From Stentor roeselii (Eukaryota; Ciliophora; Heterotrichea; Heterotrichida; Stentoridae), in contig RSEH01000047.1 of the NCBI GenBank assembly GCA_006503475.1, positions 62,001 through 126,000 of the forward strand: 64,000 nt of DNA, given 5' to 3'. Under the pieces are notes generated by a model, which searched no databases, had not been told where the DNA came from, and saw nothing but the letters and a program-made list of their open reading frames with translations. The translations under genes were made by a program, and so were the position numbers. This document shows positions 1 through 64,000 of the stretch, one piece after another; positions within the stretch are counted from its first letter, which is position 1, and the number at the start of each line of letters is the position of its first letter.

Positions 1-2
1 CA

Positions 3-1220
3 AATGAAAAGTATTTCAAAGGGATTGAAAAGTGGTGCAATGAAGTCAACTCACAATGCGAACATTATTTGAACCAGCAAAACAACCTGGCTGAAAAAAT
101 CAAGACGATGAATTCAGAATATCAAGAAAAATGCAATGATTATCAAGCCAAGGTTGAAAGTTTAATAAATGATAAAGCTTTGCTAATGAAAAATGTGGAA
201 AATCTGCAAAAGGAAAACTTTTCACTTAAAAAAGAAAATGATTCTTTGACTGCTGAACTTTTGAAACTTCGTGCAAGACTTTTAAGTATTGAAGGAGAAG
301 CTCTTCAGCATTTGTCACTCAAGTCTAAAGAAACTGAACTGAATGAAAAATTGAAATCGACTGAGTCTTTGTTAGCTGGACTGAAAGATGAACTCACTCG
401 AAGTGCCTCTAGTTTTAAGGAAAATTTAAATAAAGTCATCAGCAATAAAAACTTGTTAGCAACTGAAAATAAAGACTTGTCAACAAGGTTAAACTCTTTA
501 GAATCTCTCATCAAGTCGAAAGACTCAGAGATTGAAAGACTTTTACAGGAAAATAATAAAGTCGCTTCTGAAATGGCTTGCATTGAACAGCACTTATGTG
601 TTAAAGAAGACTCAAATCAGATTATTGATGATTTAATGAAAAGTAATCAGGAGTTAAGATCTGAAAACAGAGAAAGTAAGAAAAATTTCATTGAAAATAA
701 TGAAAGGGTTTTGGAATCTGCTAAAAAAGTAGAGGAACTTGAGGAAAAAATAAAAGAAATCACTGAAGAAAATGAAGTTCTTATGAGTGCTGTCGTTAAA
801 TTACAGAGAAATCGAGATATTTATGTCCCTGTCAATGGAGACCCGGTTGATAATGCTTTGGCTGACTTTATCAACACTCTTGATGAACCACTTCAAGTCC
901 CTTTTACTCGTGAAGAAGAAGGGATTTATTTATTTGGAACAAAAAGAATTTTTGTTAAATTGGAACAAGGGAAAATTATTATTAGAGTTGGAGGAGGATT
1001 TATGCAAGTTCATGAATTTATTGATGTTTATACTAATACTGAAGTTGAAAAGTTTGCACGTGAAAAAGCTGAACATGCTTCGAGGTTAAGGATGAGTATT
1101 TTAGGAAAACTTAATGAAGGATCGCCTGGAAAGTATTCTCAGTGCTTTGGTATACAGAGGAGGAACTCTTCAGTTACTAGAGCTTCTGTTAGTCCTAATC
1201 ATACAAGTTTTTATAATTGA
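3..1220 (+). CDS. Coiled-coil protein with C-terminal GAS2-related (GAR-like) domain, 5' end outside window
   Basis: The frame is open to the left edge, so the true start lies outside; 405 residues are visible and the gene ends with TGA. Most of the protein (to about visible residue 275) is heptad-rich coiled coil with long Glu/Lys/Leu stretches. Near visible residues 305-347 there is a compact domain with the pattern REEEGIYLFGTKRIF followed by IIIRVGGGFMQVHEFI. This resembles the GAS2-related domain, whose core is VRVGGGW..L.EFL and which binds microtubules. A cytoskeletal or microtubule-linked role is inferred. The GAR call rests on motif memory only. The downstream neighbour is convergent, 128 bp away. 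Confidence 0.75.
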   Translation, partial: NEKYFKGIEKWCNEVNSQCEHYLNQQNNLAEKIKTMNSEYQEKCNDYQAKVESLINDKALLMKNVENLQKENFSLKKENDSLTAELLKLRARLLSIEGEALQHLSLKSKETELNEKLKSTESLLAGLKDELTRSASSFKENLNKVISNKNLLATENKDLSTRLNSLESLIKSKDSEIERLLQENNKVASEMACIEQHLCVKEDSNQIIDDLMKSNQELRSENRESKKNFIENNERVLESAKKVEELEEKIKEITEENEVLMSAVVKLQRNRDIYVPVNGDPVDNALADFINTLDEPLQVPFTREEEGIYLFGTKRIFVKLEQGKIIIRVGGGFMQVHEFIDVYTNTEVEKFAREKAEHASRLRMSILGKLNEGSPGKYSQCFGIQRRNSSVTRASVSPNHTSFYN

Positions 1221-1348
1221 GTAGTTTGGTAAGGTTATCATTATTCATTTGTAGATGGATGATTAATTAGTGGATAACATGAAGGGTTGAGTAAATTTAG
1301 ATATTTTAATTGAATGCTTAGAGTGTGATACTTTCAGCTATTATATCA

Positions 1349-11388: not shown

Positions 11389-11389
11389 A

Positions 11390-15063: not shown

Positions 15064-15915
15064 ATGGAAGAAAACCTGATCCACGGTCTATCAGGAGGAA
15101 TCTCCTCGATAGTCTCAACCGCAGTAGTTCATCCATTCGAGTCAATGCGAGTGAAGATGCAATCCGAGCAATCAAGTGTTTATTTCCTGAGTTACCTTTT
15201 AAAAATCTACAAAGAAGAAGGATTAAAAGGTATTTACGCTGGTTTCGGTGTAAACATCGCACAAGTGGCAACATCTTACGCGATATACTTTTTCAGTTAC
15301 CAGCACATAAAGCGAATTATATCAAAAGGAAAGATGAAGCTAACGATATCAGGCGACGCTTATGCGAGTTTCCTGGCAAGTGCAGTGGTTATCATAATCC
15401 TAAGTCCTCTTTGGACAATCAGCACAAGGCTCGTCAAGGACAAATCAAAGAGTTTCTGGGCAGTGACAAAACAAATATACAACAATGAAGGCCTTTCAGG
15501 TTTCTTCAAAGGTGCAACAATGAGCCTGGTGCTGACAATGAACCCAGTGATTCAGTACACTTGTTACGAGTATCTTAAGAAGAGGTACCAACAGTCAGCC
15601 TTTGTTGCTCATTTCTTGTTTGGAGCAGTTGCTAAGTTCGTGGCGACTCTTTTGACATACCCCATGCAGACCATCAGGACAAGGCTTCAGTTGAATGAAA
15701 AGGAAAATCGCTCTATTTGGGATGATTTCAGAGAAATTATGATGAAAGATAGGAAAACTTTGTTGAATGATTTTATTGCGAGTTATAATGGGTTCTTTTC
15801 AAAGTGTGTTCAGACTGTTCTTAACTCTGCTATTATTTTGTCTTTACATGAAAAAATCACTGGGTACTTGATGATGAGAATACTAAAGGTGCCTCAAGTT
15901 AAAATAATTAAGTAG
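15064..15915 (+). CDS. SLC25-family carrier, peroxisomal ATP-carrier-like
   Basis: 283 aa in three about 95-residue repeats, each with the carrier signature Px[DE]xx[KR] or a variant: HPFESMRVKM in repeat 1, SPLWTISTRL in repeat 2 and YPMQTIRTRL in repeat 3. Six membrane segments fit. The degenerate second and third signatures and the compact ends resemble SLC25A17/PMP34, which exchanges ATP, CoA and related nucleotides across the peroxisomal membrane. A mitochondrial nucleotide or folate carrier is the alternative. It starts 41 bp after the previous stop and is convergent with the radial spoke gene, 4 bp apart. Confidence 0.88.
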   Translation: MEENLIHGLSGGISSIVSTAVVHPFESMRVKMQSEQSSVYFLSYLLKIYKEEGLKGIYAGFGVNIAQVATSYAIYFFSYQHIKRIISKGKMKLTISGDAYASFLASAVVIIILSPLWTISTRLVKDKSKSFWAVTKQIYNNEGLSGFFKGATMSLVLTMNPVIQYTCYEYLKKRYQQSAFVAHFLFGAVAKFVATLLTYPMQTIRTRLQLNEKENRSIWDDFREIMMKDRKTLLNDFIASYNGFFSKCVQTVLNSAIILSLHEKITGYLMMRILKVPQVKIIK

Positions 15916-15919
15916 TTAT

Positions 15920-17290
15920 CTAGCTATCGTCTCCTGGATTCTCGTCTGACTCTTTTGGCTCTTCTGGCTTAGTCTCTGGGTATGGCTCTTGGAACTCATC
16001 TTTTTCGGAAGGCTCGTCGAGGATCACTGGAGGGCTTATTGGGTAGACTCTTTCGGTTTCTACTTTTAGACCGTAGCCTAGGTAGAAGTGCATCCAACGA
16101 TCGTTTTGTTGGACTATTGATACACCTGGCCACCAGAGACTTTTGAGAACGTTGACTGCGAAAGTGTATTTACCTTTTTTAGGTGGCTTTTCTGTGTATT
16201 CCTGAACATCTCCAACATATCTATAAACCCACGCCCTTCCGAGTCCAGGAACTTCCCTATCCTTACTAATAGCTTTAAGTCTTTCCTCAAAAGGATCCTG
16301 TTCAATCTGCCTAGCCTTAAGCACTTCAACATCAATATCAGCATCATCAGGTACTTCCGGTTCCATATGAACAATTCTGGCACATTTCAAGATACCCTGA
16401 TGCAGATGTACCCAGTTATTCAAATCCTTGAGTTGATGTGTCTGTAAATAATTCGGTTCTTCTTCATTTTCAATTTCCATCGGGTTATCCTCAACAGTTT
16501 TATGCAGTCCTCTCGGTTCCAAATAAGTAGAATGAGTGATTCTTGCAATCTGAGCACGAAGATACTCTTTTTCCTTTCCCGGGAAATGCGGGTTAGACAC
16601 AATAGTCGTATTAAGATTCCCGGTGAATAATTTCCTAATCTTCCTAGCGACTTTAATCTGCTCAGGAGTGACATCAGGGAGTTCGACCCATGCATTAAAA
16701 ACCGAGTCAGTCACCCAGTAAGTGAACTGATTAACCCCCTCGCCTCTTTTTTCAAAGTCAGAAGGTCTTTCTTCCTCTTCCGGTGCTTCTCCAACTCCTT
16801 CAACAACATAATAATCCTTCTGACTTCCGAGGATCTTTCCCCAGAAGCGAATGTCCTTCGCTGATTTTTCCTTTACAAGTCTTTTTAAAGCTTGTCGAAG
16901 TCTCCAACATTCTTCTTCGCCCAGGTCAATCCCAGCCCAGCGGAGAAGATGCCGGTCTTCCATGATGTCGAGAATTGCGGGGAGCGGGTCAGGGGCTACT
17001 TCAACCTGGACGCCTTCGTCGTTTTCTTCTTTCGGTCGGTCAATCAATTTCTGCTCTAGGACCGAATGAGTGATTAGACTGTCGAGGTCTGCCTTTGGAA
17101 TCGTTTTTGAATGCAAGTAACTGAAACCGTGTTTCTTGATGTCCAATGAAAGAAGTTCAAGCTTGTCTAGACCTTGGCTTGGGTTGTCGTATATTAACTG
17201 AGAAAAGACTTCTTGGAGCTGGTCCATTACTGATTTTCCTTTCTCGCCTCGGGAGGACTGCAGGAAGTTTTTTAGCTCTTGCACAGACAT
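15920..17290 (-). CDS. RSPH4A: Radial spoke head protein 4/6
   Basis: 456 aa. Family blocks are visible in order: an acidic middle region followed by FWGKILGSQKDYYVVEG, then VNQFTYWVTDSVFNAWVELPDVTP, LFTGNLNTTIVSNPHFPGKE, YLRAQIARITHSTYLEPRG, and late WVYRYVGDVQEY. These are the hallmarks of RSP4/RSP6 (RSPH4A/RSPH6A), which form the radial spoke head of motile 9+2 cilia and relay signals from the central pair to dynein. The tail is acidic and Pro-rich. It is divergent from the next gene with only 15 bp between start codons. Confidence 0.95.
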   Translation of the reverse strand: MSVQELKNFLQSSRGEKGKSVMDQLQEVFSQLIYDNPSQGLDKLELLSLDIKKHGFSYLHSKTIPKADLDSLITHSVLEQKLIDRPKEENDEGVQVEVAPDPLPAILDIMEDRHLLRWAGIDLGEEECWRLRQALKRLVKEKSAKDIRFWGKILGSQKDYYVVEGVGEAPEEEERPSDFEKRGEGVNQFTYWVTDSVFNAWVELPDVTPEQIKVARKIRKLFTGNLNTTIVSNPHFPGKEKEYLRAQIARITHSTYLEPRGLHKTVEDNPMEIENEEEPNYLQTHQLKDLNNWVHLHQGILKCARIVHMEPEVPDDADIDVEVLKARQIEQDPFEERLKAISKDREVPGLGRAWVYRYVGDVQEYTEKPPKKGKYTFAVNVLKSLWWPGVSIVQQNDRWMHFYLGYGLKVETERVYPISPPVILDEPSEKDEFQEPYPETKPEEPKESDENPGDDS

Positions 17291-37040: not shown

Positions 37041-39518
37041 ATGGATCCTCCGTATATGGTAGTAGTGCAGGGACCGAAGAACTCTGGAAAAACTACTCTG
37101 ATCAAGTCTTTGGTTAGACACTACACTAGACAGAGGCTTACTGATGTCCACGGGCCAGTAACAGTAAGAGCAAACCGTAACCTGCGTTTATGTTTCTACG
37201 AGTGTTCAAATGACATAAACTCGATGCTTGACCTAGCTAAAGTAGCAGACTTGGCATTGCTCCTAATAGACGCGAGTATCGGGTTCGAGTTAGAAACATT
37301 TGAGTTTTTAACAATAATGCAAAACCACGGTTTGCCCTGCGTGATGGGAGTTCTGACCCATCTCGACCAATTCAAAGAAAACAAAGCTCTCCGAAAGATA
37401 AAAAAACAAATGAAAAAGCGTTTTTGGGACGAGGCCTACAATGGAGCAAAGCTTTTCCACATAAGCGGAGTGAAAAACGACCTCTACACCGACAACGAAG
37501 TCCATAACCTAGCAAGGTTCATATCAGTGTTAAAGTGGAAGGAAATCACTTGGCGCTCAAATCATTCTTACATCCTCGCAGATCGTTTTGAATATAAATC
37601 TGAAATTTCTCGAAGTGTTTTTTACGGATACATTCGAGGCTCGCCCTGCAATGAAAAGACTTTTTTTGTTCCGGGCTATGGAGAGTTCCAGATGTCAGAA
37701 TGCATTCAAACTGAAGACCCCATCCCTGCCATTCAAGAAGCGCAGAAAAAAAAGACCCATAGGACTTTAAAGATGAAGGAAAAAGCTTTATATGCTCCTT
37801 CTTCTAATGTTGGAGTATTGAAATATGATGACACGACTGGATATCTTAATTTACCTGATAGGTATGTCATGTTTTCCAAACATGACGGGGAAAATACTGA
37901 AGAGTTCACCGAAGGGCAGAAGATGGTCAGGCAGTTGCAGGAAAGAGAAGTTGAACTTCAAGGTTTAGATGATGAGCTTAACTTAATCTCAGAGGCTTAC
38001 GTCAAAGTACCTGCAGTTCTCGTTAATCATGTCAAAAAAGAAGACCTTGGAGAAGTAGCGAATCAACTCAAGGAAAAACTAAAAAATCATAATGAACAAG
38101 AGTACCTCATTAACAATGGGGTTATCATGGCTGCACTTGAAACTGTTGTTTATGGAAAATTAACTCAACCTGGACGAAAAGTCATGCCGAAGAATCAGGA
38201 AGACTCGTCGAAATCGAGGATTCCTACGAAGTATGCTGATGTTGAAGAATATGTCAAAAGTGTCAAGTCGAGATTCATGGCTGGAACTACTATTAAAGAA
38301 GATGAACCTGCTGAGCAAGAAAATTTAGAAAATTCAGAAAGGGTTATTAAGGCAGGAATACAAAAAGGAACTTATGTCAAAATTGAACTGGAAGGGCTGA
38401 ATGAAGAGATTTTTTCTACTATCAATGCGGATAAGCCGCTGATACTTTGTGGAGTTAAAGCTTTGGAAAATGTGTTGGGGTTGTTGAGAGGTCGAGTAAA
38501 GAACCACAAGTGGAACAAAAAGATCTTAAAAAATGAAAATCCAGTCATCATGTCAGTCGGCTGGCAGCGATTCCAAACCCTTCCAATGTTCTGCACCGAA
38601 GACCTAAACACGGAGCGTATCCGTATGTTGAAATACACTCCAAAATACAGCTTCTGCGGGCTGATCTTCTTCGGCCCATTCGTGCCTGTGAACACTCCAT
38701 TTCTTGCCATGTCAGACATAAACTCTGCCGAATTCCGGATCTCAGCAATAGGAACAATTTTAGAACTAAGCCATTCTTACTCAATCTACAAGAAACTAAA
38801 ACTAATCGGCGAGCCTTACCAGATCTTTAAAAACACGGCTTACATCAAAGGAATGTTCAACTCACAACTGGAAGTGTCAAAGTTCCTCGGGGCTAAATTG
38901 AAAACAGTCTCTGGGATCAGGGGAATGATAAAAAAGGCTGCAAGACAGGGACTCGGCCCTGACGGAACCTTTCGAGCGACTTTTGAAGACAAGATCCTGA
39001 TGAGCGACATCGTTTTTTTAAGGACTTATTATCACGTCAAACCTAAAAAGTTCTATAATCCTTTAGTCAACTTTTCACAACAAAGACTGCTGAAGTCAGT
39101 ATCGGATTTGAGGAAAGAAAAAGGAATTTTTACTGAAGATAGGAAAGACTCGCATTATATTCCTATTGTTAGGAAAGAAAGAAACTTTGCACCTTTGAAG
39201 ATTCCGGCGAAAATTGAGAAAAATTTACCTTTTAAGAATAAAAATAAGGAGGAGGAGAGAAAGGAAGATGTTGACCCAAATCTTGAAGTTTTAATGAATG
39301 AAAGAGAAATTAAAATAGCTTCGTTTTTGAAGAGACTTGAAAATGTGAAGGATATTCGGATGAAAAAAGAAAAGGAAAAACAAGAAAAAAGACAGGAAAT
39401 TATTGTCAAGAAACAAAAAATTGAAGAGGAAAAAATCAAGGAAAGTCTTCAGAGAAGAATCAAAAATCGCATGAAAAAGTCAAAAAATAGGAAAAAGGCT
39501 TTTGATGATCATGCTTAG
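37041..39518 (+). CDS. BMS1: Ribosome biogenesis GTPase BMS1
   Basis: 825 aa. The GTPase starts at once: P-loop GPKNSGKTT at residues 11-19, then DVHGPVTVRANRNLRLCFYE, ADLALLLIDASIGFELETFE and GVLTHLDQF. The middle is charged. The C-terminal half has the BMS1/TSR1 blocks (VGWQRFQTLPMF, YTPKYSFCGLIFFGPF, KNTAYIKGMFNSQLEVSKF, ISGIRGMIKKA-like, FEDKILMSDIVFLRTY) and a Lys-rich coiled tail. BMS1 acts in the nucleolar small-subunit processome with Rcl1. It is shorter than yeast or human BMS1 (about 1180-1280 aa) and lacks the usual basic segment of about 65-70 residues before the P-loop: an in-frame TAA directly precedes the ATG. Confidence 0.94.
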   Translation: MDPPYMVVVQGPKNSGKTTLIKSLVRHYTRQRLTDVHGPVTVRANRNLRLCFYECSNDINSMLDLAKVADLALLLIDASIGFELETFEFLTIMQNHGLPCVMGVLTHLDQFKENKALRKIKKQMKKRFWDEAYNGAKLFHISGVKNDLYTDNEVHNLARFISVLKWKEITWRSNHSYILADRFEYKSEISRSVFYGYIRGSPCNEKTFFVPGYGEFQMSECIQTEDPIPAIQEAQKKKTHRTLKMKEKALYAPSSNVGVLKYDDTTGYLNLPDRYVMFSKHDGENTEEFTEGQKMVRQLQEREVELQGLDDELNLISEAYVKVPAVLVNHVKKEDLGEVANQLKEKLKNHNEQEYLINNGVIMAALETVVYGKLTQPGRKVMPKNQEDSSKSRIPTKYADVEEYVKSVKSRFMAGTTIKEDEPAEQENLENSERVIKAGIQKGTYVKIELEGLNEEIFSTINADKPLILCGVKALENVLGLLRGRVKNHKWNKKILKNENPVIMSVGWQRFQTLPMFCTEDLNTERIRMLKYTPKYSFCGLIFFGPFVPVNTPFLAMSDINSAEFRISAIGTILELSHSYSIYKKLKLIGEPYQIFKNTAYIKGMFNSQLEVSKFLGAKLKTVSGIRGMIKKAARQGLGPDGTFRATFEDKILMSDIVFLRTYYHVKPKKFYNPLVNFSQQRLLKSVSDLRKEKGIFTEDRKDSHYIPIVRKERNFAPLKIPAKIEKNLPFKNKNKEEERKEDVDPNLEVLMNEREIKIASFLKRLENVKDIRMKKEKEKQEKRQEIIVKKQKIEEEKIKESLQRRIKNRMKKSKNRKKAFDDHA

Positions 39519-41028: not shown

Positions 41029-41370
41029 TTAATAGTCATCGCCACCGAACATGTCAAGGGCTCCATCAAAGTCAGCGTCTTCGTCTTTCTTTTCATCCTT
41101 TTTGTCGTCTTTCTTTGTATCCTGAGTCTCGGCTGAGGTTGTCGCTGGTCCGGCTGAAACAACTGCAGCTCCTCCGGTTGACTGAAGTTTAGAAAGTCCA
41201 TTTCTAATGGCTTGGGCTACGTCTCTTTCAGCTACTGATTCAAGCACTATCTCCGCCTGTTCCTTGTCGAAATGACCACCAACTGAAGTGATGATGGCTT
41301 CCAAGTCCTTCACTGACGGGTTGCTTTTGCCGCTGAGCCAAGCCAAGGCGTATGCACTTAAGTACTTCAT
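41029..41370 (-). CDS. RPLP2: 60S acidic ribosomal protein P2
   Basis: 113 aa. The N-terminal helix MKYLSAYALAWLSGKSNPSV and the DLEAIITSVGGHFD / GLSKLQS blocks match P2. An Ala/Gly hinge and an acidic Lys/Asp-rich linker follow. P2 pairs with P1 on the P0 stalk that recruits elongation factors. The usual C-terminal end EESDDDMGFGLFD is replaced by ALDMFGGDDY, which keeps the acidic-aromatic character but shifts the final motif. ATG start with no room for an upstream exon. Confidence 0.93.
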   Translation of the reverse strand: MKYLSAYALAWLSGKSNPSVKDLEAIITSVGGHFDKEQAEIVLESVAERDVAQAIRNGLSKLQSTGGAAVVSAGPATTSAETQDTKKDDKKDEKKDEDADFDGALDMFGGDDY

Positions 41371-42019
41371 TACTATTTATCACCATTGATAATTTGGAGG
41401 TTTTCGCAAGCTTCTGGCTCAGGGGATGGAAGAATTTTCAAGGTTTTCAAGATTTTAGAGATTTTTAGAGTGGGAAAATTAACTTGTTGAACTTTTTTGA
41501 TGTAAGATTTGAGGGAAAGTTTAGAGGTTTGGATGAAGGCAGGTGAGATTTATGAAGGAATTGAATGGTTTTGGAATTGAAGATAAGAGTGAGTGTTAGG
41601 TTAGAGGAATGGTGATATGAGGTAACTGGAGATGTTTAGATGATATTAGAGGATCTATTGGTTTGTTAAGATAATTCAAATGTTTTTTGGGTATTTTCTG
41701 TTGTTTAAAAGAACAGCACAGATAATAGAACAAAAAATTTAACTATTAAATTTACTTCATGATAAACAACTTCTTATAATTCTCAGATACTTCAAAACAA
41801 TTCTCACAATTTCATGGAAATCTCTAGATAAACTTAAAACATTCCTTAATTAATTCCTTATCTTCAACTTCCAGCATTCAACATTTTTCAAACCTAAACC
41901 CATTAAAATTTCATTAGCATCTGATATCCAGTCAATTCCACAATTTTCCTCAATAAACTCATCAAACCCTCCTTCTCAAATCCAAGTCTTCAATACCAAC
42001 AATCAGTTAATAATAATAT
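41371..42019. other. Divergent intergenic spacer, 649 bp, with sharp G-to-C switch
   Basis: No gene, tRNA or repeat seen. By hand count the + strand has 43 G and 2 C at 41521-41640 but 6 G and 51 C at 41821-42000; the switch is near 41690. It lies between divergent genes (P2 and the cyclase), so each gene's 5' flank is G-poor on its own sense strand. No TATA-like motif is convincing against the AT-rich background. Confidence 0.7.
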
Positions 42020-44443
42020 ATGAGCAAAAGCTTTGACCGAACCCGACTTCAAGTATCTCCCGAAAAAATAACTCTAGACGACGGAAATTCAATATCCAAG
42101 TCATTTAACCAAATAACCCTGATCCAAACCGAAAAAGAAAATGAAGGAGTCCTGGAAGACTGTAGAAAAATTTCAAGTGTGAAACATTCTCAGATGATGG
42201 AAGATTTTTTAGAGTCTAAAAAGGTGACAATCACAATGTCCATCGTCACGATCTACGCCCTCTTCGCTGATGACGTTAAAACTTTAGGATTTCCCAAATC
42301 TTCTGACGACGCTTTTTCTTCCCTGGTAGTTATTTGTTTGCTTTTATTTGCATTGGAACTCGTTCTTTCTTTTTCATATAAAACCAACTACAAGTGGTCG
42401 TTTTACTTTTGGCTTGACCTGGTCGCTACCTTGTCTCTAATAACGGACATCGGATGGATCTGGGATAGTTTAATCGGAGTCTCGAATAGCTCCTCAAATA
42501 GCAAACAACTGCAAAATGCTGGAAAAGCTTCAAGGGCTGGCACAAGGACTTCGAGGATTCTTAGAATTATTCGACTTATTCGACTCATTCGACTTGTGAA
42601 ACTTTATAAAAATGCTCAGATTGCCATGAAAAGTGAAGAAGATGAAGAAGAACTTGTTGTGGCTGAAATTAATATTGAGAACATTGGACAAGAGTCGAAA
42701 GTTGGAAAAAAGTTATCGGAAGTGACGATGAAAAGAGTTATTTTAATTGTTTTGGCTATGCTTTTTTTGTTACCGTTGTTTGAGACTGACTTTTATTTAA
42801 GTGAACAGACTAGCTGGACATTTGGTGTGGAGAATATGAAAAGTTTTTTGAATCTTGAAGGGTTTGAGGAGGTGAAAAATAAGTATGTCAAATATCATAA
42901 GAAAGATATCAGGCCTTTGGTTTTTCTTTCTTGGAAAAATGAAACTGATAGTTATGAATGGCAAGCAGATACCGACTACAATGACTTAAGGTACAATGAA
43001 ATTTATTATTACTCTAAAGACAACTTCGTATCTATTTTCGACATAAGATATGATACAAAACTCACATCTCTTCTAAACATCTTTAAAACAATTTTCATTT
43101 GCATGATTTTAACCTTCGGCGCTCTTTATTTCACAAAAGATTCAGAAGAGCTCGTAATAAAGCCGATCGAAAAAATGATAGAAAAAGTGAAAAAAATCGC
43201 CAAAAACCCATTATCAGCAAGTCAAGTAAAAACCATTCAAGACGAGCTCGACCAAGTCGACGAAAAGACCTGTTTCTGCTGCAAATCCAAAAAAACAGTA
43301 AAAGCCGAATACGAGACAAAAATCATCGAAGACACAATAATTAAAATCGGAGTCCTTCTGGCTCTCGGCTTCGGAGAAGCCGGTTCCGCAATAATCGGTT
43401 CAAATGTCGAAACAAACGGAGAACTAGACCAAATGATGACAGGTTCTAAAGTCGTCGCAATCTTCGGCTTTTGCGACATCCGAAACTTCACGGACACAAC
43501 AGAAGAGCTACAAGAAGGAGTCATGATGTTTGTAAATGAAATCGCTCAGATAATTCACGGAGTTGTCGGGAAGTACTTCGGAGCGGCCAACAAAAACATC
43601 GGCGACGCTTTTTTAATGGTCTGGAAATTTAACACTGACGAGTTTTTCCTAGACCAAGACGAGTTGATTGTAAGAAACCCGAGTTCAAAGAAAGCAAGTT
43701 ACATCCCCGACCTGGCCCTTCTCAGTTTCTTGAAGATTCTGGCAAAGGTCAACAAGGACCCCGTGATTTTGAAGTACCGCGGGTACCAGAAGCTTTTACA
43801 GCGAATGCCGAATTACGAGGTCAAGATGGGCTTCGGCATGCACCTCGGGTGGGCAATTGAAGGACCCATTGGAAGCCAGTTTAAAATTGACGCGTCTTAC
43901 TTGTCACCACATGTTAACCTCGCCTCTGCCTTGGAAGCCTCGACGAAGGTTTATGGAGTTCCTCTACTTATCTCGGGAAGTTTGTATGACATGTTCAGTT
44001 CGAAGGTCCAAGGGTACTGTCGAAAAATCGATGTGATTAAAATCAAAGGAATGTCTCTTCCTATCTCTATTTATACAAGTGACTGCGAGTTCAGTCATTT
44101 TCAACAGGGAAGGTTCGTCAGTCGCAAAAAGGACGGGTTTGTGAAAAAAAGAAACCTTTTAAGAAAAAAACTTACTTCTGGAGAGGTTAAAACTGATACT
44201 TTGTTTGATAAGTCTAGAGAAGTTGCACTTATGAGGAAAGGGTTTAATGATGAGTTTTTTAAGGTTTTTGAACTTGGCATCTTGGCTTATGTCTTGGGAG
44301 ATTGGCATGATGCTAAAGTGAAATTAGAAAAAGCTCTTGCTTTAAGGGCCAAGGATGGACCTTCTTTAGCCATTTTGAATTATATCAGCGAGTTTGAATT
44401 TTCAGCGCCTGCTACTTGGGACAAAAGTCGATATTTATCTTAG
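42020..44443 (+). CDS. Voltage-sensor-type membrane protein fused to class III nucleotide cyclase
   Basis: 807 aa. Residues about 65-200 resemble S1-S4 of a voltage-gated channel: S4 reads RTSRILRIIRLIRLIRLVKLYK in pieces, with Arg every third residue (about 176-197). A further membrane helix (238-254), a roughly 95-residue outer loop and a last helix (350-371) follow, with no K+ filter motif visible. A HAMP-like linker leads to the cyclase domain: metal Asp in FGFCDIRNFTD (D486) and GDAFLMVW (D529), then GFGMHLGWAIEGPIGSQFK and SPHVNLASALE. In the last motif, NLASA replaces the usual NLASR, so the transition-state Arg is missing. Ciliate adenylyl cyclases with channel-like halves are known. 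Activity needs testing. Confidence 0.9.
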   Translation: MSKSFDRTRLQVSPEKITLDDGNSISKSFNQITLIQTEKENEGVLEDCRKISSVKHSQMMEDFLESKKVTITMSIVTIYALFADDVKTLGFPKSSDDAFSSLVVICLLLFALELVLSFSYKTNYKWSFYFWLDLVATLSLITDIGWIWDSLIGVSNSSSNSKQLQNAGKASRAGTRTSRILRIIRLIRLIRLVKLYKNAQIAMKSEEDEEELVVAEINIENIGQESKVGKKLSEVTMKRVILIVLAMLFLLPLFETDFYLSEQTSWTFGVENMKSFLNLEGFEEVKNKYVKYHKKDIRPLVFLSWKNETDSYEWQADTDYNDLRYNEIYYYSKDNFVSIFDIRYDTKLTSLLNIFKTIFICMILTFGALYFTKDSEELVIKPIEKMIEKVKKIAKNPLSASQVKTIQDELDQVDEKTCFCCKSKKTVKAEYETKIIEDTIIKIGVLLALGFGEAGSAIIGSNVETNGELDQMMTGSKVVAIFGFCDIRNFTDTTEELQEGVMMFVNEIAQIIHGVVGKYFGAANKNIGDAFLMVWKFNTDEFFLDQDELIVRNPSSKKASYIPDLALLSFLKILAKVNKDPVILKYRGYQKLLQRMPNYEVKMGFGMHLGWAIEGPIGSQFKIDASYLSPHVNLASALEASTKVYGVPLLISGSLYDMFSSKVQGYCRKIDVIKIKGMSLPISIYTSDCEFSHFQQGRFVSRKKDGFVKKRNLLRKKLTSGEVKTDTLFDKSREVALMRKGFNDEFFKVFELGILAYVLGDWHDAKVKLEKALALRAKDGPSLAILNYISEFEFSAPATWDKSRYLS

Positions 44444-44598: not shown

Positions 44599-47500
44599 AT
44601 GGATTTTAATTTTTCTATTCAAGAAAAAGTCCACGAAGATCGGAAATCTTTAAACCACTTTCCTGACATGCAACCCAGAGGTCTTTCCCAAAACAAGAAA
44701 AAAAACAGTATCTCGAAATTGCTGAACCCGGACCCTTCATCGAACCTAAAAAAAGTCCCAAAGTCGAACTTGAACGACATTTCGAACCGTCTTCTAAGAC
44801 AAAACAGCAAAAAAAGCATGGGAAACAAAACCCCAGAGCCAAAAAAACCTCAAGTCCAGCGAGTTCGAAGCGAGATGAAGACCAACAAAACCACGAAAAA
44901 AAAGCCATCAAATGAAATCTCTCCAAAAAAGCGGTCACTGAAAAAGTCCAAAAACATGAACGAAAGCGTTTTAAACATCAAAGAAAACTCTTTTCTGAAA
45001 AAAGACTTCTCAACAGTTTCGAAAGACTTAAAAATCAAGAAAGGGAAAAAAAGCCAGGAAAACTTGAAGTATGATGAAAAAATTAGAAAAATTGATATCA
45101 AACAGTATCTGGCTGATTTGAATAAAGTCACAAGAGTTGATAACCTCAAGAAGTTCAAACATGAAAAATTCAAACCTAAGTGTGTCTGGGGACTTGATGA
45201 AAGAAGACTCGCAGCTGGAAGCTGCTCGAAAAACTTCAGAGATTTTGATATTGCCAGGAAAAAGTTCAGAAATGAAAAAGATAGGTCGAAAAGTGCTGAA
45301 AAGTCGAGAATTGAACTGCCAAAAGTCAGTGATGAAGAGAAAAAATGTTTAAAGAAGAAGAAAATTGAAGCGAAAAAAGGAAAAATTATTGTCAATAGAA
45401 GTAAAGACTTACATCGAGATGAGGCGTTTAAAAGGGGAAAAGAACAGAATTTTAAGAAGTCACCGAAAAGGGTGAAAAGTGCGAAGGTCTCGAAAAAGAA
45501 GATTGTTAAGAAAGTGGATACAAGCTATGAGGAAGTCCAGAGGAATGCTTGGAATGATGAGGACCCTTTTGATAGCTTGAAAGTTGTTAGGTCGAAAACT
45601 CCTGATAGGATTGAATCTTCTGGATTTGTTTATAACAATCATGGAAGGGAAAATTTTTTCTTTGGAAAAGAGGAGAGTGAGGAAAAGGGAGTCATGCATA
45701 CTGATTGCAATTATAAGTCGGAGGAAACAGTACAGCCTACGAGTGCTACTCTCAAACTTACTGAAGGCAAAGACTCATATTCCATAATCCAACCAGACGA
45801 CGATTTCAAAGAACTTCCAAGTCTCGACATCTCAAAACGAAAAGAAGAAATCAAGAAAAAGCTAAACGATTTACGTGTAAAAGTCGAGAAAAACGTAGAA
45901 AGCCACTCAATCGACGAAGAACACCAACACAAATCCGCAACAAAAATCCAAGCCCACATTCGTGGATGGTTAACAAGACAAGCACTATCCCGTTACATCC
46001 AAAGTCTTTACAAATCCGAGTCCTGGGTATCCTTCCACGAAGAAGACTCTCTTCAAAGTTCATCAAAATCAATAGAAACTCAAAAATCCCTTCAAATTCT
46101 CTCAAAAGTTTCAAGTAACTTCGACTCCTCAGAAGTTTCCTCAATAGTCCAGCTTCAAAGAGACCCAGTCCAAATCGATGCAAGTCTTGTGTTAAAAACT
46201 GAGTCACATTGGAGAGAACTTCAAAAGGAAAAACTTGTTCATCTGAAAAATAAAGATTTTGAAGATATTCAAAAAATCGCCAAACATTTCGGATCAGAAG
46301 ACTTTCTTCTTCCTTTTTTCGAGAAGTTGATCGAAAGGCGCTATGCGAACATTGACCAGATCTTCGACGAGCATCTAGAAGCAGTGAAAGGAATTGTTCA
46401 GTTCGCTTCTGAAGATAAGCCAAAATCGATTTTAAACTCCGTAGACGACGTAAGAGGAAGTAGGGAAAGTATTCAAGAGCCCCCAGCAGAAGTTGACTTT
46501 GAACAACTTAAGTTTTACTCAGAAAATGAAGAAGCTAGTCTTAGAATTAGTGAAATTGACCTGGCTTCTGATAAGCCAGGAGTTTCCAGTCGTACAGTTG
46601 AAGAGATTCGGGCTTCTGTTGAACTGGACTTGAAAAAAGTCATTTTTTTTAAAGCTGAAAATAAGAACCTTCCGCCGAGGACCTGCTCAGAGCCTGGGTT
46701 TCCGTTGTTTGACTCTGAAGCTCTAGAAATATGTGAAGTCATTGTTGTTCATGAAGTCTTTCTTGAGTCACTTGAATTCGCTAGAAGAGACTTGGAAGTC
46801 GAAGAAGCGATTAACGCTGCGAACATCATTTTAAACGAGATGATTGAAGAAGAGGTAAAAAATTACCAGAAAGAAATCAAAGAAAATCATAAGTTAAACA
46901 CTTGTCAAAGCACTCTTCATTTAACACCCTTGCCTCTTGTGGAGTACTTGCCACTTGATGATCGGTTTATTGAGAACTTCATTAAAAGCTTGCTGGAGTT
47001 TTTTTATCTTCAGGAGTTCGACCTTGACCGGGTGTTAAACGTGCCGAACTGCTACTCTTGTCTTGAACTTCTCACGAAAATGCAGGAGTCTGACATCGGG
47101 GTGCTGATTGACAAGAAACCTAACAAATTTCCACTGATTCAAAATCTTTACAACGACTTCTGCACTTGGCAAAACCTTACCGGGTTGAAACTGGTTCATT
47201 CTCGCCTCCTCTTCGATTGCACCAACGAGTTCCTCATGAAAAAATCAGTAAAACCTCAGCCTTTTCCCTGGTCAGACAGAAAAAAAACCCGTTTATCACA
47301 AGAGATTCTTTCTCATATAGGAGTTCTTCCAGCTTTAATCTTCGAGTTAAAACACTTGAATAAGTTAAGAGCAGGAAAAGTTCCAATAATCGAGATGATC
47401 AATTCAAGAGATTCTGAAGGAGAAATTATTTCTCAAATGCGAGAAGATCATCTTTCTTGCATCTTGGCAGTCGAGGTGATTTCTCAAGAGCCGGAGTGGA

Positions 47501-48171: not shown

Positions 48172-50559
48172 TTAATAATTACTCCTATCGTTGTTAGGGC
48201 ACCCTTCTGTCAGGATATGTTTCAGCCAACCGGCTTGTCCAGGGTCCACATCATCATGACAAAGAGCACAGCGATTAGCTTTCGAAGGTGCTTTAGCAGC
48301 CAAACAAGCCTGTTCTTCATTATGCTGTTCATACTCATCAATATGAATGGCTTCCTTGCACCTCGGGCACTGTTTAAACAACTCATGAAATTCACATTCT
48401 TTCAAGAAATGATTATTAAGTTGAATGATCTCAACAATCTGATTGCACTGAGAGCATCCAACAAGCATAGGACAATCTTTCCAATAATGAATATCAAGAT
48501 TATCCTGATTTCCAAAAAGTGCATCATTTTTTCCACAAAATCCGCACATGGGTGCCGAATTTACAACTTTAGACTCACCAGCCCTTGGTTCATTGATTCT
48601 GGGTTCATTGATTCTGGGTTCACTCATTCTAGGTTCATTTATTCTACTTTCCGAGCCTTTCGCTTTAGGATCAACATATGATCCTGACTCGACTTCAGAA
48701 AATCCTTTTTGCAGTAATTCGATTTGTGCAGGTCTGAGTCCTTTATTATCATTGACCAGATTTCCTAGTTTTGGCCCGACGCATTCATAAATCTTCATCA
48801 AAAGGTTGTAAGCTGAGTTCCTGATGTCAGGGTTCGAGTTACTGTAAGAGGTGATTGCGTAGTCAACTACTGGATTAAAGGGAACATGTGAATTGTCAAT
48901 TCGGAACTCACTGACCACCACAGTTAAAAGACTTAAACGACCCAAGTTATGTTTTTGTGAAGAGGCTTTTTCCTTATTCGGCTTTAAAAGTACCTGAACA
49001 GCAGGACCGACTCCTACGATTTCACTTCTAGCAAGAGTCATATAAGTCTTTTCAGCGATTTCTCTGACTTTAGCTGTGTTATCTCCAACTTTATCAAGAA
49101 GTAATGCGAGTATAGACTGAAGGTACTCAGCTGAGTCGCCTCTGATAAATGCCTTATTCGGAGGTAGTGACTTGATCAAAAATGCAAGAAGTCCCATTGA
49201 CTTCATACTGACTTGCGAGATATTATCTCCAATAGTATACCTCACAGCTCCCAACACTCCAGTATAAACTTCCCACGGTTCCAATTCCTGAAAAATCTCA
49301 GAACTCTGTCTAGATCCCAACTCGTTCTGCACCCGGCTGAGACCTTCTTCCCTATTCTGCCTGTTCTTCGAGAAGATCCTTTTCACTATCGGCTCCGTTA
49401 AAATATGTGCAAAAGGCTCAGCTTGTTTCAGTTGTTGCCCTGAAAGAGGTTCAGGACTTGAAGCATTTCCGCGGTTTGGGTTGTCGTCTTCGACCTCTTC
49501 ATAAATATTTGCCCCTCCTTTTCCATTTGCCACTGCTGGCAAGACTTGCTCGTCATGAGACATTCCCTTGTTGGAAAAGCCTTTATTGTTAAAAGGGTCT
49601 GGCTTCAGGTCCTGCTTCTGGTAAGGGTCCTGCTTTGAAAAAGGGTCTTTTCCTTCGTTTTTCGAAAAAAGGTCAGGCCGTTGGTTTTTTGTTGGAGGCA
49701 GGTCGAAGTCAGGAGAGCCGAACTGCTGAAGAGGCCGGGAATTCGGCCTGTTGCCTGAGAAAGGGCGGAAGTTGGCTTCGCCTGGCGGCATGATTGAACT
49801 TCTAAGTCGGTCGATTTCCATTTTAATCACTTTCGCTGCGTCGTAGTCTTCATTGGAAATCGCGTTTCTTTTGCGTTCTTCGAGGTAGTACAACTGTTGT
49901 CCCATCATTTTCAGTCGCTCGATGGCTTCTCTTAATTTCTTCGCCTCGTCGAAGTCTTCGTTTTCAACGGCTCGGTCTTTAGAGGCTTGTAACTGCCTGA
50001 GTCGCTCTGAGGTCTGAGGGTCGAATTCGAGCTCGTTTTCTAGTCTTGGAGGAAGACCCTTCCGGCTTGGGACTGAAACTTCGCCTAGCTCTTCTCCCAT
50101 CGCGTTTATTGCGATTAGACCTACCTGGTTGAACATGTTGTACTTGTTGATGTGGCACTTGTTTAGAGCGATTTTTAGGTATGATGCTTTTGTGTCGATG
50201 AAGACTGATTTTAACTCTCGGGCCTGGAAATTTGATTTTTCGTTGTTGTCCAAGGAAAGGTAACCCAAACGCTTCCACTTTATTTGGTCCATTGGGGGAA
50301 GGGAGGACATGGCTTCTGCGAAGTAGGTGTATATCTCGATTTTTGATGAGATTTTTGAATGGTGTGAAAGGAACTGAAGCTGCTGGATGTGCACAGGACA
50401 GATGAACTGGAAGATTATAACTTGAGGAAAGTCTTGAAAACGAGCACTTTGCCAACCCTTGCACTGAGGTCCATGCTTCATAAGTTCCACTGCAGGATAA
50501 TCATTATCTTCACTGGTGCAGGAGACAATCCGGAATTTGAGTTTTGAGAGGTTTGACAT
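48172..50559 (-). CDS. CEP104: CEP104 (FAP256) ciliary tip protein
   Basis: 795 aa. The N-terminal domain (about 1-165) is the CEP104 jelly roll (VIIFQFICPVHIQQLQFLSH, SVFIDTKASYLKIALNKCH, NKYNMFNQVGLIAINAMG). A coiled coil follows at about 185-270 (EDFDEAKKLREAIERL, NEDYDAAKVIKMEI), then a disordered linker. A TOG domain of HEAT-like helices lies at about 375-610, and C-terminal zinc fingers (MCGFCGKNDALF, CPMLVGCSQC, FKQCPRCKEAI, CALCHDD). This order is that of CEP104, which binds microtubule plus ends and tubulin at ciliary tips. A short INEPR-type repeat sits between TOG and zinc fingers. Confidence 0.95.
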   Translation of the reverse strand: MSNLSKLKFRIVSCTSEDNDYPAVELMKHGPQCKGWQSARFQDFPQVIIFQFICPVHIQQLQFLSHHSKISSKIEIYTYFAEAMSSLPPMDQIKWKRLGYLSLDNNEKSNFQARELKSVFIDTKASYLKIALNKCHINKYNMFNQVGLIAINAMGEELGEVSVPSRKGLPPRLENELEFDPQTSERLRQLQASKDRAVENEDFDEAKKLREAIERLKMMGQQLYYLEERKRNAISNEDYDAAKVIKMEIDRLRSSIMPPGEANFRPFSGNRPNSRPLQQFGSPDFDLPPTKNQRPDLFSKNEGKDPFSKQDPYQKQDLKPDPFNNKGFSNKGMSHDEQVLPAVANGKGGANIYEEVEDDNPNRGNASSPEPLSGQQLKQAEPFAHILTEPIVKRIFSKNRQNREEGLSRVQNELGSRQSSEIFQELEPWEVYTGVLGAVRYTIGDNISQVSMKSMGLLAFLIKSLPPNKAFIRGDSAEYLQSILALLLDKVGDNTAKVREIAEKTYMTLARSEIVGVGPAVQVLLKPNKEKASSQKHNLGRLSLLTVVVSEFRIDNSHVPFNPVVDYAITSYSNSNPDIRNSAYNLLMKIYECVGPKLGNLVNDNKGLRPAQIELLQKGFSEVESGSYVDPKAKGSESRINEPRMSEPRINEPRINEPRAGESKVVNSAPMCGFCGKNDALFGNQDNLDIHYWKDCPMLVGCSQCNQIVEIIQLNNHFLKECEFHELFKQCPRCKEAIHIDEYEQHNEEQACLAAKAPSKANRCALCHDDVDPGQAGWLKHILTEGCPNNDRSNY
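48586..48645 (-). repeat. 15-bp tandem repeat inside CEP104, four units
   Basis: Four units close to GGGTTCATTGATTCT (+ strand), each coding for five residues like INEPR on the minus strand. Units differ by one to four bases. A Pro-rich flexible linker between TOG and zinc-finger domains is the likely product; the copy number may vary between alleles. Confidence 0.85.
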
Positions 50560-58706: not shown

Positions 58707-59288
58707 ATTAATTAATGGAATCAGTAGATTATTTTGGGTTAGCTTGTAGAGGGGTATTGGAGATGGGTTGGTTTATGGAGAATTAGGTAGAGATGTAGTC
58801 AAGGAATAGGGGCAAGGATTTAGCTGATATTTGGTTTTGAGACTTGAATAATGAATTGGAGATATCTCAAATTTTATAAATTCTATTTTATCAAAAATTT
58901 CCTTAAAGAAGATTCTAATCCCATTCCATAAAAGACCCAAATTCATTATAAGATTGAATGAGAAATATTCAAAGACTATACAAAATTCCTATCCATATCT
59001 TCCATTTTCTTTAAACATTCCCACCCCAATACAGAAATAATTTCCATATACTGACCCTCTAGACCCTCAAACGATTAAAGCCAACTAAAAGCCTCTCTTA
59101 TTTTCAAAGCCCTATCCTCCCTCAACGAACCCCACTTCTGATATATTTCCTATTCCAAATCATAAAACTTCTACCTCGTCCGACGAATCAAAAAACCATC
59201 AAAAAATTCTCTCTCACTTGATAAATCTCCAGAATATTCCAGTAAAAATCGCTGATTTTTCTAGAACGTTTATATCATTTCATATTTA
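58707..59288. other. Tandem intergenic spacer, 582 bp, with sharp G-to-C switch
   Basis: No gene, tRNA or repeat found. The + strand has 42 G and 5 C at 58741-58860 but 9 G and 58 C at 58981-59160 by hand count, with the switch close to 58880. Both flanking genes are on the + strand, so here the G-rich part is a 3' flank and the C-rich part a 5' flank. Confidence 0.7.
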
Positions 59289-61837: not shown

Positions 61838-61881
61838 GGGATTTGATGGGTTTGGATTGGGATTGGGGGGGTTGGATGGGG
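61838..61881 (+). other. G-tract cluster (possible G-quadruplex) after eL42
   Basis: Five runs of three to seven G (61838-61840, 61848-61850, 61859-61861, 61865-61871, 61878-61881) with short loops. Enough for a four-tract quadruplex on the + strand, in the 3' flank of the ribosomal gene. It lies in one of the G-rich domains of the window. Confidence 0.6.
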
Positions 61882-61993
61882 AGTTTATGAAGTGTTTTTG
61901 GTGAAGAATGGTGAGAGTTGGGGATTTATTAGTGTGATTTTGATTTAGAAACTTAATCATTATTAAAACTATTGATTTAGCAGTAGCTTAAAC

Positions 61994-62317: not shown

Positions 62318-62616
62318 TATAAAGGATTCACTTGAGCGTATCTTGATTTTTCAAAGGGGGGTATTAATCTCATTAAAACGGATACTTTGAATCCAACTAA
62401 CAAAAATTTTAATAAAAGAAAATCAAAAAATCCTTTAAAAATTGCTTTTTTTTAATTATTTAAATAGCAAAACTAAATTTTCACTTTTTGAAGAAAAAAT
62501 TCGTTAATTTTTTTCAAACTTCTGTAAAAGACTTAAAATTACTCTAGAACTTGAATTCTTTTCCCAAAACCTTTCAAAGGATTTTGCTAAACTTTTTCAT
62601 CATACAAATTTCAAAT

Positions 62617-63681
62617 ATGAGAAACTCTTTCATGAAATCCTCGAGTCCGAATCCTAACTCTCCGAAGTTACAATCGAACTGTAAACCCAGAGGACATAAG
62701 CCGCACATGAGCTCGAAAGTGATTTCTCCAAATCAACAAAGAGCCAGATCTCCAAGAGGCAGAAGTCCTTTGAGAGGAGGTTCCCCGAATGGAGGTCCAC
62801 GAATGTCAGCTTTTAATCGCATCAATTCGAAAACATTGCTCAGTCAGTTAGTGCTACCTGGATTCTTAAGGGTCAATCAAGATGAAATAAAAAAATTCAC
62901 CAGTTTGGATAACTTCTGTAGACTTGGAACTTCTGACTCGACTTTCAATGAAAGTAGAATGTATTCTAGAGTTAAGCTTAGTGTTCTTGAATCGAGTAAA
63001 TTAAGTGGAGGCTATAATGACATCTCTCAACTAATATTTGATCGAAACATGCCAAGCGAAGAAATTTTGATCAACGTTGGAAAACTTTCACTCAAACGTG
63101 AAGACCTTCATTGCATGCAAAAAGGACTTGACCTTAACGAGCAAGTCGTCGACGTAATATTAAAACTGATCAAAAGAAAAAACAAGAAACTAATCAAAAA
63201 AGGAAAAGTAAAAAAATCGATTTTTTGTCTTTCCAGCGATTTTTCAGCCCAACTGTTCAAAGAAGGCGCAGTAGTTCCTCAGAAATACCAAAAAAACCTC
63301 CTCGAATACGATTTCCTGATATTCCCTGCAAAGTTCAATTCCTGGACATTAGCAGTTTTAGAAACCCGAGCAAAAATGATAAAATTTTACGACCCTGTAG
63401 GAATAAATGATGAAAAATCCCTGGTTTTAACTCAAATCTCGAAATTTGTTAGTTCTCAGCTTAAAACTTTTGCAAAGGTGGAAATTTCAAAGACAAGATG
63501 GGCGAATCTGCAAATCGAAAAAATTGATGAAAGCGAGGTCTTTCCCGATCATGATTGCGGGATTTACTTGTTTAGAAGGGTGCACAAATATGCGGCGCAG
63601 CATAATAAGCCGATTCACCCAGAAGCTCTTCCTGTTTATAGAAAAAGACTTATGGAGTACATGTTTAAACACAGTAATTAG
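62617..63681 (+). CDS. Ulp1/SENP-like (C48) protein, catalytic His replaced
   Basis: 354 aa from the ATG at 62617 (upstream TTG rejected). Residues 1-80 are basic and Ser/Pro/Gly-rich. From about 145 the Ulp1 fold appears: LSLKREDLHCMQKGLDLNE, VVDVILKLIKRK, FDFLIFPAKF-like, SWTLAVLE, KFYDPVG (D259) and DHDCGIYLFRRV (C314). The His that normally precedes Trp in H-W-x-L is Ser here (S242), so the triad is incomplete. Ulp1 enzymes process SUMO or NEDD8; this one may be inactive and serve as a binding protein. An alternative His elsewhere cannot be ruled out by eye. Confidence 0.85.
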   Translation: MRNSFMKSSSPNPNSPKLQSNCKPRGHKPHMSSKVISPNQQRARSPRGRSPLRGGSPNGGPRMSAFNRINSKTLLSQLVLPGFLRVNQDEIKKFTSLDNFCRLGTSDSTFNESRMYSRVKLSVLESSKLSGGYNDISQLIFDRNMPSEEILINVGKLSLKREDLHCMQKGLDLNEQVVDVILKLIKRKNKKLIKKGKVKKSIFCLSSDFSAQLFKEGAVVPQKYQKNLLEYDFLIFPAKFNSWTLAVLETRAKMIKFYDPVGINDEKSLVLTQISKFVSSQLKTFAKVEISKTRWANLQIEKIDESEVFPDHDCGIYLFRRVHKYAAQHNKPIHPEALPVYRKRLMEYMFKHSN

Positions 63682-63743
63682 AGATTAATTAAGTAAGTGC
63701 TAGTTCATTATTAAAATTTTGATAATCTTCAATATCGATAGTT

Positions 63744-64000
63744 TTAATCGTTCAAAAAAGCATGCAAAAGCAACTCTTTCGCAGAAGGTCGAAAAGAATA
63801 AGGCCTTCTCCAGCATTTCATTAAAAAGTCTTCGAGAACAGGAGTGTCTAGCTGTTTATCTTGTAGAGGTGATTCACAATCGACCATCAAATGCATGGCT
63901 TTGGCGATATTTGCCGTTTTAAACGGTTTGCATCCAGTATAAAGTTCATAAACCAAGCATCCAAGACTCCAAATATCAGCAGCAAATGAATAAGGTTCCT
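63744..64000 (-). CDS. Protein kinase, N-terminal part outside window
   Basis: The open frame reaches the right edge; the last 85 residues are visible. EPYSFAADIWSLGCLVYELY is subdomain IX (with the conserved Asp and Gly), and the end SFRPSAKELLLHAFLND is subdomain XI with its Arg, followed at once by a stop. It is a Ser/Thr kinase whose catalytic domain is C-terminal; the group cannot be fixed from the fragment. Confidence 0.88.
   Translation of the reverse strand, partial: EPYSFAADIWSLGCLVYELYTGCKPFKTANIAKAMHLMVDCESPLQDKQLDTPVLEDFLMKCWRRPYSFRPSAKELLLHAFLND

Follow-up and report, generated by a model that had tools for sequence, protein, structure and literature searches.

Introduction

Strand composition is usually read as a trace of replication or transcription, at scales between the gene and the megabase. 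Replication skew domains extend over hundreds of kilobases to megabases, and at human origins the excess of G and T jumps upward. This analysis concerns a stretch of 64,000 nucleotides from the ciliate Stentor roeselii (contig RSEH01000047.1, positions 62,001 to 126,000; G000:C344:62001-126000 in our own labels), here called the window, in which strand composition alternates with a wavelength of about 1.3 kb. The window belongs to a 44.4-Mb assembly in 522 contigs, and the Stentor lineage is characterised by giant polyploid nuclei.

Several described systems come close to this pattern. Around human origins, the skew is N-shaped, with one sharp edge and one that decays away from the origin (PMC3269016). 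In ciliates, the nanochromosomes of Halteria carry a GC skew, G over C, at their 3′ ends (PMC7858049), and subtelomeric bias includes a purine skew within about 130 nt in Nyctotherus and a bias over about 50 bp in Oxytricha (PMC2633312, PMC3558436). In yeast, induced APOBEC mutations at resected breaks form single-switch clusters, with mutated C's to the left and mutated G's to the right of the break, in the motif of the enzyme and in tracts of up to dozens of kilobases (PMC6786661). In Blepharisma, about 39,800 germline-eliminated sequences (IESs; 10,778 + 29,021) are reported for a 41-Mb somatic genome, or about one per kilobase; about 70% of them are intragenic, a slight depletion, and eight somatic PiggyBac homologs are described (PMC9942856, PMC9942806).

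The Stentor pattern shares with human and bacterial skew domains one sharp and one gradual edge, symmetry under reverse complementation, and extension through coding and noncoding DNA, and its changes of sign are independent of gene strand. It differs in its short wavelength and in the direction of the sharp edge, which falls from keto (G/T-rich) to amino (A/C-rich) instead of rising from amino to keto as at origins; the sharp edges equal origins only if the leading strand is A/C-rich. Like Halteria, Oxytricha and Nyctotherus, Stentor has strand bias in its DNA. Unlike the subtelomeric skew of ciliates, this bias is internal (for instance on the window's contig, C344, of 187,575 bases), is repeated every ~1.3 kb on contigs of up to hundreds of kilobases, and runs through coding sequence. 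Its polarity equals that of the yeast clusters, from which it differs in being an evolutionary composition without TC context and in covering only a few hundred base pairs per side. It resembles the IES landscape of Blepharisma in density, in its many intragenic positions and in its locus specificity; unlike those IESs, it is known from somatic sequence alone, and its spacing seems more regular than random insertion would give. Among the papers listed in searches aimed at strand skew in ciliates or at codon positions, which covered few subscription papers and in one case 12 of 647 entries, there is no report of internal kilobase alternation.

An Internal Cycle of Strand Composition

At each of the sharp points, the top strand passes from C-poor and G-rich abruptly to G-poor and C-rich sequence, and then drifts back over several hundred bases. 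About 324 kb were analysed, window included, with positions 22001-186000 of C344 handled as a single stretch. The DNA beyond the window consists of eight 10-kb pieces of C344 and 20 more pieces, two from C344 and 18 from elsewhere; 17 of these 18 were used and a 43-base stub was left out. In what follows, K is the keto state and A the amino state, both on the plus strand, and K-to-A and A-to-K switches were placed by a two-state hidden Markov model (HMM). The plus-strand score spans coding and noncoding DNA, and its weights, like the codon axis and the HMM emissions, come from training on the very 324 kb that they describe; untrained measures and out-of-sample paralogs agree with them. Gene calls were crude: open frames were scored with a codon model, introns were ignored, and coverage was 61%.

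Over all loci, the autocorrelation of the plus-strand score falls from 0.47 at 20 bp to zero near 330 bp, reaches -0.153 at 600 bp and returns to +0.054 at 1300 bp. The bootstrapped lobes are -0.142 +- 0.015 (450-750 bp) and +0.044 +- 0.018 (1000-1400 bp); later lobes of this score are not significant. Spectral power has its maximum at 1333 bp, 3.6 times the power at 8 kb, and the K-to-A spacing has a mean of 1185 bp and a median of 1137 bp (10-90% range 639-1862, coefficient of variation (CV) 0.43, n=249). These values bear out the cycle of 0.7-1.5 kb described in a first-pass annotation of the window, which had been made from the letters alone. Within the window, the HMM places 54 K-to-A and 54 A-to-K transitions, and the 13 switches listed in that annotation are a mean of 28 bp (119 bp at most) away from a transition in this separately fitted model, against 195 bp for random points. 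Its five composition counts were exact on recount; positions 41521-41640 hold 43 G and 2 C, 41821-42000 hold 6 G and 51 C, 58741-58860 hold 42 G and 5 C, 58981-59160 hold 9 G and 58 C, and 15590-16190 hold G136 C106 T211 A148. A random telegraph signal with detection dead time was rejected: by our own arithmetic it could yield a CV near 0.43, but the negative lobe stays unexplained.

Raw G-C skew, an untrained measure, repeats this fall and negative lobe in the window, on C344 and at the 17 loci elsewhere, and its curve is nearly unchanged after removal of strand-by-codon-position means. Its positive return at 1-1.3 kb has a z of up to 3.2-3.5 in the window. For T-A skew over all bases, after the same removal of means, the curve never turns negative and shows no oscillation. 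On this point the first-pass picture needs correction: G-C drives the cycle, and T-A follows at third positions. A 50-kb control from E. coli has no such curve; the only value of note there is positive and lies at 500 bp (z 3.3).

In coding DNA, third-base residuals were taken with amino-acid and gene means removed (89 genes, 58,398 codons). The autocorrelation of both G-C and T-A is positive to ~80 codons and negative from 140 to 250 codons, where removal of gene means makes the values somewhat deeper. Compared with synonymous shuffles, the G-C variance is raised 3.5-fold at 50 codons and ~6-fold at 150, with a slightly smaller excess for T-A. A single codon axis dominates within genes (eigenvalue 0.079, against 0.0086 for the next and a shuffled maximum of 0.0021), and in 81 of the 89 genes with 300 codons or more the signal is stronger than in every one of 100 shuffles of the gene's own codons. 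Thus the skew autocorrelation that the first-pass annotation had expected in third positions and spacers alike is found in both: genic values lie far above synonymous shuffles, also in the window alone and at the 17 loci elsewhere, and spacer values far above their controls up to ~150 bp.

The Sawtooth Shape

The edge from K to A is sharp and the return gradual, on both strands and in spacers as well as genes. Read along either strand, composition climbs from amino to keto before it drops. Such a ramp-and-drop equals its own reverse complement, so that every unit is C/A-rich at the 5′ end and G/T-rich at the 3′ end of both its strands. Increments are skewed negatively, by -0.46 to -0.52 at 100-200 bp and by -0.29 at 300 bp; 1000 sign-flipped block surrogates gave no value as low. 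The genic skewness ranges from -0.36 to -0.47 (p 0.000-0.014 depending on window size), with the same sign in plus- and minus-strand genes. When switches were located from half of the tokens and assessed on the remaining half, using the stronger points only (153 of 267 K-to-A, 141 of 269 A-to-K), K-to-A flips were completed within ~100 bp and A-to-K flips within ~240 bp. The level flanking K-to-A points is hardly tied to interval length; in intervals of at least 1.5 kb (n=53) it is sustained for ~400 bp and has faded by ~1 kb. This shape, absent from the first-pass annotation, constrains the mechanism most.

Relation to Genes

Genes start amino (mean -0.2 to -0.3 over the first ~100 codons) and end keto in the sense direction (~+0.2 over the last ~120 codons), and long genes show a further damped oscillation, most evident when counted from the stop codon. 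K-to-A points fall in spacers (135) as well as in genes (132), with called spacer making up 39% of the DNA. On C344, 38% of the points have a called gene boundary at most 200 bp away, compared with 28+-3% expected; a test on mean distance to gene boundaries gives only p=0.077. The annotated view that the domains ignore gene boundaries thus holds insofar as switches also occur inside genes, and fails with respect to this attraction and to the amino starts and keto ends. Gene ends anchor the cycle without creating it. If points closer than 200 bp to a gene end are set aside, the 12 genes shorter than 700 bp have none and the 12 genes of 2-2.5 kb have one to three each. An ORF of 4,319 codons (C344:139924-152883) has ten K-to-A points at intervals of 801-1644 bp, and its autocorrelation comes back to +0.043 at 480-560 codons (z 21). 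A HECT domain lies near its C-terminus; two other pieces of the ORF have no Pfam match at 1e-5.

At divergent (n=15), tandem (34) and convergent (18) junctions, the mean composition of the adjoining coding DNA is keto to the left and amino to the right. Two exceptions occur: the mean is about zero in the final 100 bp before convergent junctions, and divergent spacers have no G excess in their left halves. For 17 opposite-strand neighbours with a gap below 150 bp, the flanks have the same sign in 7 pairs, different signs in 6 and a weak signal in 4. The block that had been described as crossing a convergent pair does so in the HMM as well. A gene-strand effect was rejected: after removal of gene-strand means, the signal is nearly unchanged, in line with the first-pass view that it is not tied to the sense strand. 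The skew whose sign is set by gene orientation, as transcription would give, is limited to the weaker mean trend from start to stop.

Signs of Pressure at the DNA Level

The keto strand of strongly skewed spacers is composed of A.333 C.089 G.177 T.401, with T/C up and A/G down by similar factors, which fits more C>T on one strand and less on the other. At fourfold xCN codons, the axis is very nearly G/T versus A/C, to which G versus T and A versus C contribute little. Amino acids, and with them the first two codon positions, also shift between states: Ser makes up 7.5% in K and 10.2% in A, and Val 6.8% and 5.2%. This nonsynonymous shift argues for pressure on DNA and not on codons. The third-base effect varies with the following base, and the codons at odds with a pure transition model point to an admixture of translational or context effects; on top of the DNA-level pressure, NNR and Gly codons are probably under translational selection.

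A footprint of an APOBEC/AID-like deaminase was rejected, as C loss is not concentrated in a motif such as TC; for the other contexts, AC is 0.47 versus 0.42 expected and CC 0.24 versus 0.25, and no dinucleotide stands out. Palindromes at switches were also set aside, since their small excess over controls 150 bp away occurs at both types (K-to-A 7.95 vs 7.77, A-to-K 8.01 vs 7.80).

Paralogs and Locus-Specific Phase

The comparison covered four paralogs of gene 42020-44443, a cyclase-type gene (47-65% identity), and two of the PDE gene 34819-37017 (42-43%). Both window genes and all six paralogs are strongly patterned, each in its own way (variance ratio 3.3-8.6). Phases are in step for the cyclase paralogs L030 and L032 (r 0.69-0.70) and for the window PDE and L036 (r 0.76), opposed for the window PDE and L035 (r -0.59), and unrelated for some other pairs. 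Fourfold identity in the cyclase family is 0.31-0.45 versus 0.32 expected by chance, which places synonymous sites at saturation or close to it. PDE fourfold identity varies with phase, being 0.46 in the in-phase pair and 0.23-0.24 in the two opposed pairs, to be read against the same chance value of ~0.32, which was computed for the cyclase family. That paralogs with scrambled synonymous sites keep phases of their own, sometimes opposite ones, indicates that the protein is not what sets the pattern. Some switch positions may be shared by descent, and phase-locking to the gene start could be an alternative source of shared phase.

Proposed Mechanism and Alternatives

The reading that we favour, tentatively, is that the cycle is the footprint of strand-asymmetric substitution at the DNA level around position-bound points, spaced every ~1.2-1.3 kb, where 3′-ended single strands meet. 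The asymmetry would be mutational and would come from unequal single-strand exposure, with C>T and perhaps also A>G on the exposed strand. Judging from polarity, the left flank of a point would expose the top strand and the right flank the bottom strand, and the sharp points would be sites where such 3′ ends meet repeatedly. Recurrent resected DNA ends would fit this arrangement, as would fixed meeting points of forks with initiation spread between them; by reasoning, forks meeting at a fixed point should give the same polarity if the lagging template is exposed. Gene boundaries would attract points, and long genes would carry additional ones. Under the favoured reading, the points may be breaks, forks or germline-insert junctions.

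Of the explanations offered by the first-pass annotation, local strand-specific mutation is the best supported, since spacers, synonymous positions and amino-acid-changing positions all shift and phase is specific to the locus; its observation is confirmed and its interpretation partly supported. A quasi-periodic sawtooth of this scale, independent of reading frame and gene orientation, implies an undescribed kilobase-scale DNA transaction at fixed positions. A broader and more doubtful formulation is that these are inherited sub-gene units of ~1.3 kb, with sharp borders where 3′ single strands meet, and that the mutations rewrite codon choice and protein composition genome-wide. As the synonymous identity of the PDE paralogs depends on phase, analyses of codon usage and protein composition in such genomes call for caution, because they can reflect position in the 1.3-kb cycle.

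Several results weigh against the substitution footprint. The second positive lobe is modest (+0.044 +- 0.018), with a z below 2 for raw skew on C344 and at the 17 other loci. GAA/GAG are flat, AAA/AAG are nearly flat, and GGT and CGT are favoured in A. The loss of C has no TC-type deaminase context (TC/GA 0.56 versus 0.61 expected). K-to-A points have no convincing localised motif beyond a weak and broad TA enrichment (0.063-0.082 per 10-bp bin within 100 bp versus 0.062 background), and those in genes show no AT-rich dip. In the cyclase family, fourfold identity follows phase only loosely (ten pairs, r -0.33 to 0.69). Moreover, we know of no precedent for replicons or breaks every 1.3 kb.

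Dense, chromatin-phased replication units, with K-to-A points as origins (if the leading strand is A/C-rich) or as fixed termination points phased from gene boundaries, are the next candidate and a rather unlikely one. The N shape of human origin skew (PMC3269016), the damped oscillation from gene ends and the fairly regular spacing (CV 0.43 overall and, by our own arithmetic, ~0.25 for the nine intervals of the HECT-domain ORF) speak for such units. Against them, replicons of ~1.3 kb would be needed, and the sharp edge falls where that of human origins jumps upward. The termination version overlaps with the favoured substitution footprint, so the probabilities we attach to the readings do not sum to one.

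It is unlikely, on present evidence, that K-to-A points are IES junctions, that is, programmed cut sites or micronuclear fork barriers, which would be a specific form of the favoured reading. One K-to-A point per 1.19 kb comes close to the density in Blepharisma, where most IESs are likewise intragenic, and the points are discrete, locus-specific and common to some paralog pairs; the assembly also has 12 Piwi-domain matches. The spacing is not predicted by this explanation and looks too regular for random inserts, and somatic cutting would not be heritable unless lineages are largely asexual. A search for DDE_Tnp_1_7 (PiggyBac) gave no match in the assembly, nor in any of its 14 control genomes, and so does not show absence. 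A search for germline copies of the 36-46 kb stretch listed matches of lower identity only (67-85%), but missed the window's own place as well and thus does not exclude such copies. If the borders were germline-insert junctions, somatic sequence alone would reveal germline cut sites.

Self-organising mutation, in which the G/T-richer strand stays single-stranded longer and gains more G/T, so that a preferred domain length arises without pre-existing sites, appears improbable. The lack of a motif at the points, the quasi-regular spacing and a nearly unpatterned AT-rich orphan ORF (Table 1) agree with it, but alone it leaves the asymmetry of sharp and gradual edges and the anchoring at gene boundaries unexplained.

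Selection on mRNA or codons, through translation speed or RNA folding, has very little chance of making the blocks. Some codon effects are frame-specific (GGT, CGT, GAA), whereas spacers are patterned too, blocks can run across opposite-sense junctions (the 7 of 17 same-sign pairs), homologous genes can be in antiphase (the PDE pair) and amino-acid composition shifts as well. An equally slim prospect is transcription-coupled asymmetry or R-loops along genes. The mean profile from amino at gene start to keto at gene end would agree with it, and the 3′ GC skew of Halteria was tentatively ascribed to coding-strand exposure, although the same paper notes that the two strands are alike in composition, which would fit a non-transcriptional origin (PMC7858049). 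Neither gene strand nor R-loops along genes, the latter akin to a suggestion of the first-pass annotation, explain ten K-to-A switches in one ORF; 83 of the 89 genes hold both states (a count without shuffle control), and the signal survives removal of gene-strand means. Many small inversions, also suggested there, are excluded, as the switches sit inside intact ORFs with conserved domains.

Features of the Window

The coordinates of the blocks, switches and genes named above are collected in Table 1. The sharp switch at ~41710 reads CTGTTGTTT immediately to its left and AAAAGAACAG immediately to its right, and lies in a divergent spacer (41371-42019), flanked by gene 41029..41370 (-) and gene 42020 (+). 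The former, by eye, is a candidate that we take to be an acidic ribosomal protein of the P1/P2 kind.

Table 1. Composition blocks, switch points and genes of the window (positions 1..64000)
Feature	Position	Strand	Remark
K-to-A points, first half (two-state HMM)	1336, 2388, 3305, 4128, 5323, 6553, 7339, 8067, 8784, 9490, 10229, 10676, 11737, 12374, 13407, 14955, 16200, 18225, 19438, 21105, 22766, 24170, 25345, 26597, 27851, 28661, 30095		
K-to-A points, second half (two-state HMM)	31232, 32240, 33462, 34877, 36556, 37147, 38491, 39747, 40473, 41710, 43008, 44454, 45761, 47015, 48176, 48971, 50873, 51626, 53318, 54023, 54470, 57173, 58870, 60010, 60690, 61510, 62365		points 50873-57173, within the AT-rich ORF, are doubtful
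Keto block spanning a convergent junction	15527..16199	+	junction 15915/15920
Keto block	37588..38490	+	in gene 37041-39518 (RIBIOP_C/AARP2CN protein, Tsr1/BMS1-like)
Amino block	38491..39009	+	opens at a sharp intragenic K-to-A switch
Small gene	41029..41370	-	translation ends in MFGGDD
Extreme keto spacer half	41401..41709	+	part of K block 41033-41709
Extreme amino half of spacer 41371-42019	41710..42019	+	upstream of gene 42020
Keto block	42288..43007	+	in gene 42020-44443 (Ion_trans + Guanylate_cyc)
Amino block	43008..43868	+	in gene 42020-44443; phase of the cycle varies among paralogs
Keto block	45044..45760	+	in gene 44599-47601; ends at the sharp drop at 45761
Amino block	45761..46195	+	in gene 44599-47601
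Gene with CEP104 domains	48172..50559	-	same ramp-and-drop in its own sense direction
AT-rich ORF, 2235 codons	50629..57336	-	almost free of the sawtooth
Keto spacer block	58707..58869	+	downstream of gene 57510-58706
Amino spacer block	58870..59288	+	upstream of gene 59289

The cycle had been described as present over most of the window, which holds with the exception of the AT-rich ORF at 50.6-57.3 kb, which hardly takes part: its variance ratio is 1.56, compared with a median of 5.5 in 89 genes. This orphan, with ~25% GC, has no Pfam match, and its residues 1-700 have no homolog among 7383 candidates. It is possibly recent or differently maintained DNA. A second AT-rich ORF of similar kind, with 1364 codons, lies at L011:5631-9725.

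In keto-oriented spacers, words resembling telomere repeats or the telo-box (TTAGGG, AGGGTT, TTTAGGGT; on the other strand AAACCCTAA) occur at ~2-5 times the dinucleotide expectation. AGGGTT is found 48 times versus 17 expected, and TTAGGG 36 times versus 18.6 expected, with 2 on the other strand. Such words lie, for example, just to the right of the K-to-A points near C344:55516 and C344:127251. Telo-box-like words, known from plants, may be promoter elements.

Many ORFs of the window encode proteins with normal domains (kinesin with RCC1, radial spoke, Tsr1/BMS1-like, CEP104, PDE). The radial-spoke protein (15920-17290) is 77% identical to a protein of Stentor coeruleus and 59% to one of Blepharisma stoltei, and two public proteins are nearer, at 88 and 80%. 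Scans of viral and genome contig collections with one protein gave no relative. In 33 ORFs examined, the stop codons are TAA (17), TAG (13) and TGA (3). The window PDE has 52 matches in the assembly, and 11 of them have one TAG as their sole internal stop, as would be expected from read-through of a 15-nt intron ending in TAG. In the ORF at window positions 4263-7355 (-), a kinesin motor and C-terminal RCC1 repeats share a single reading frame.

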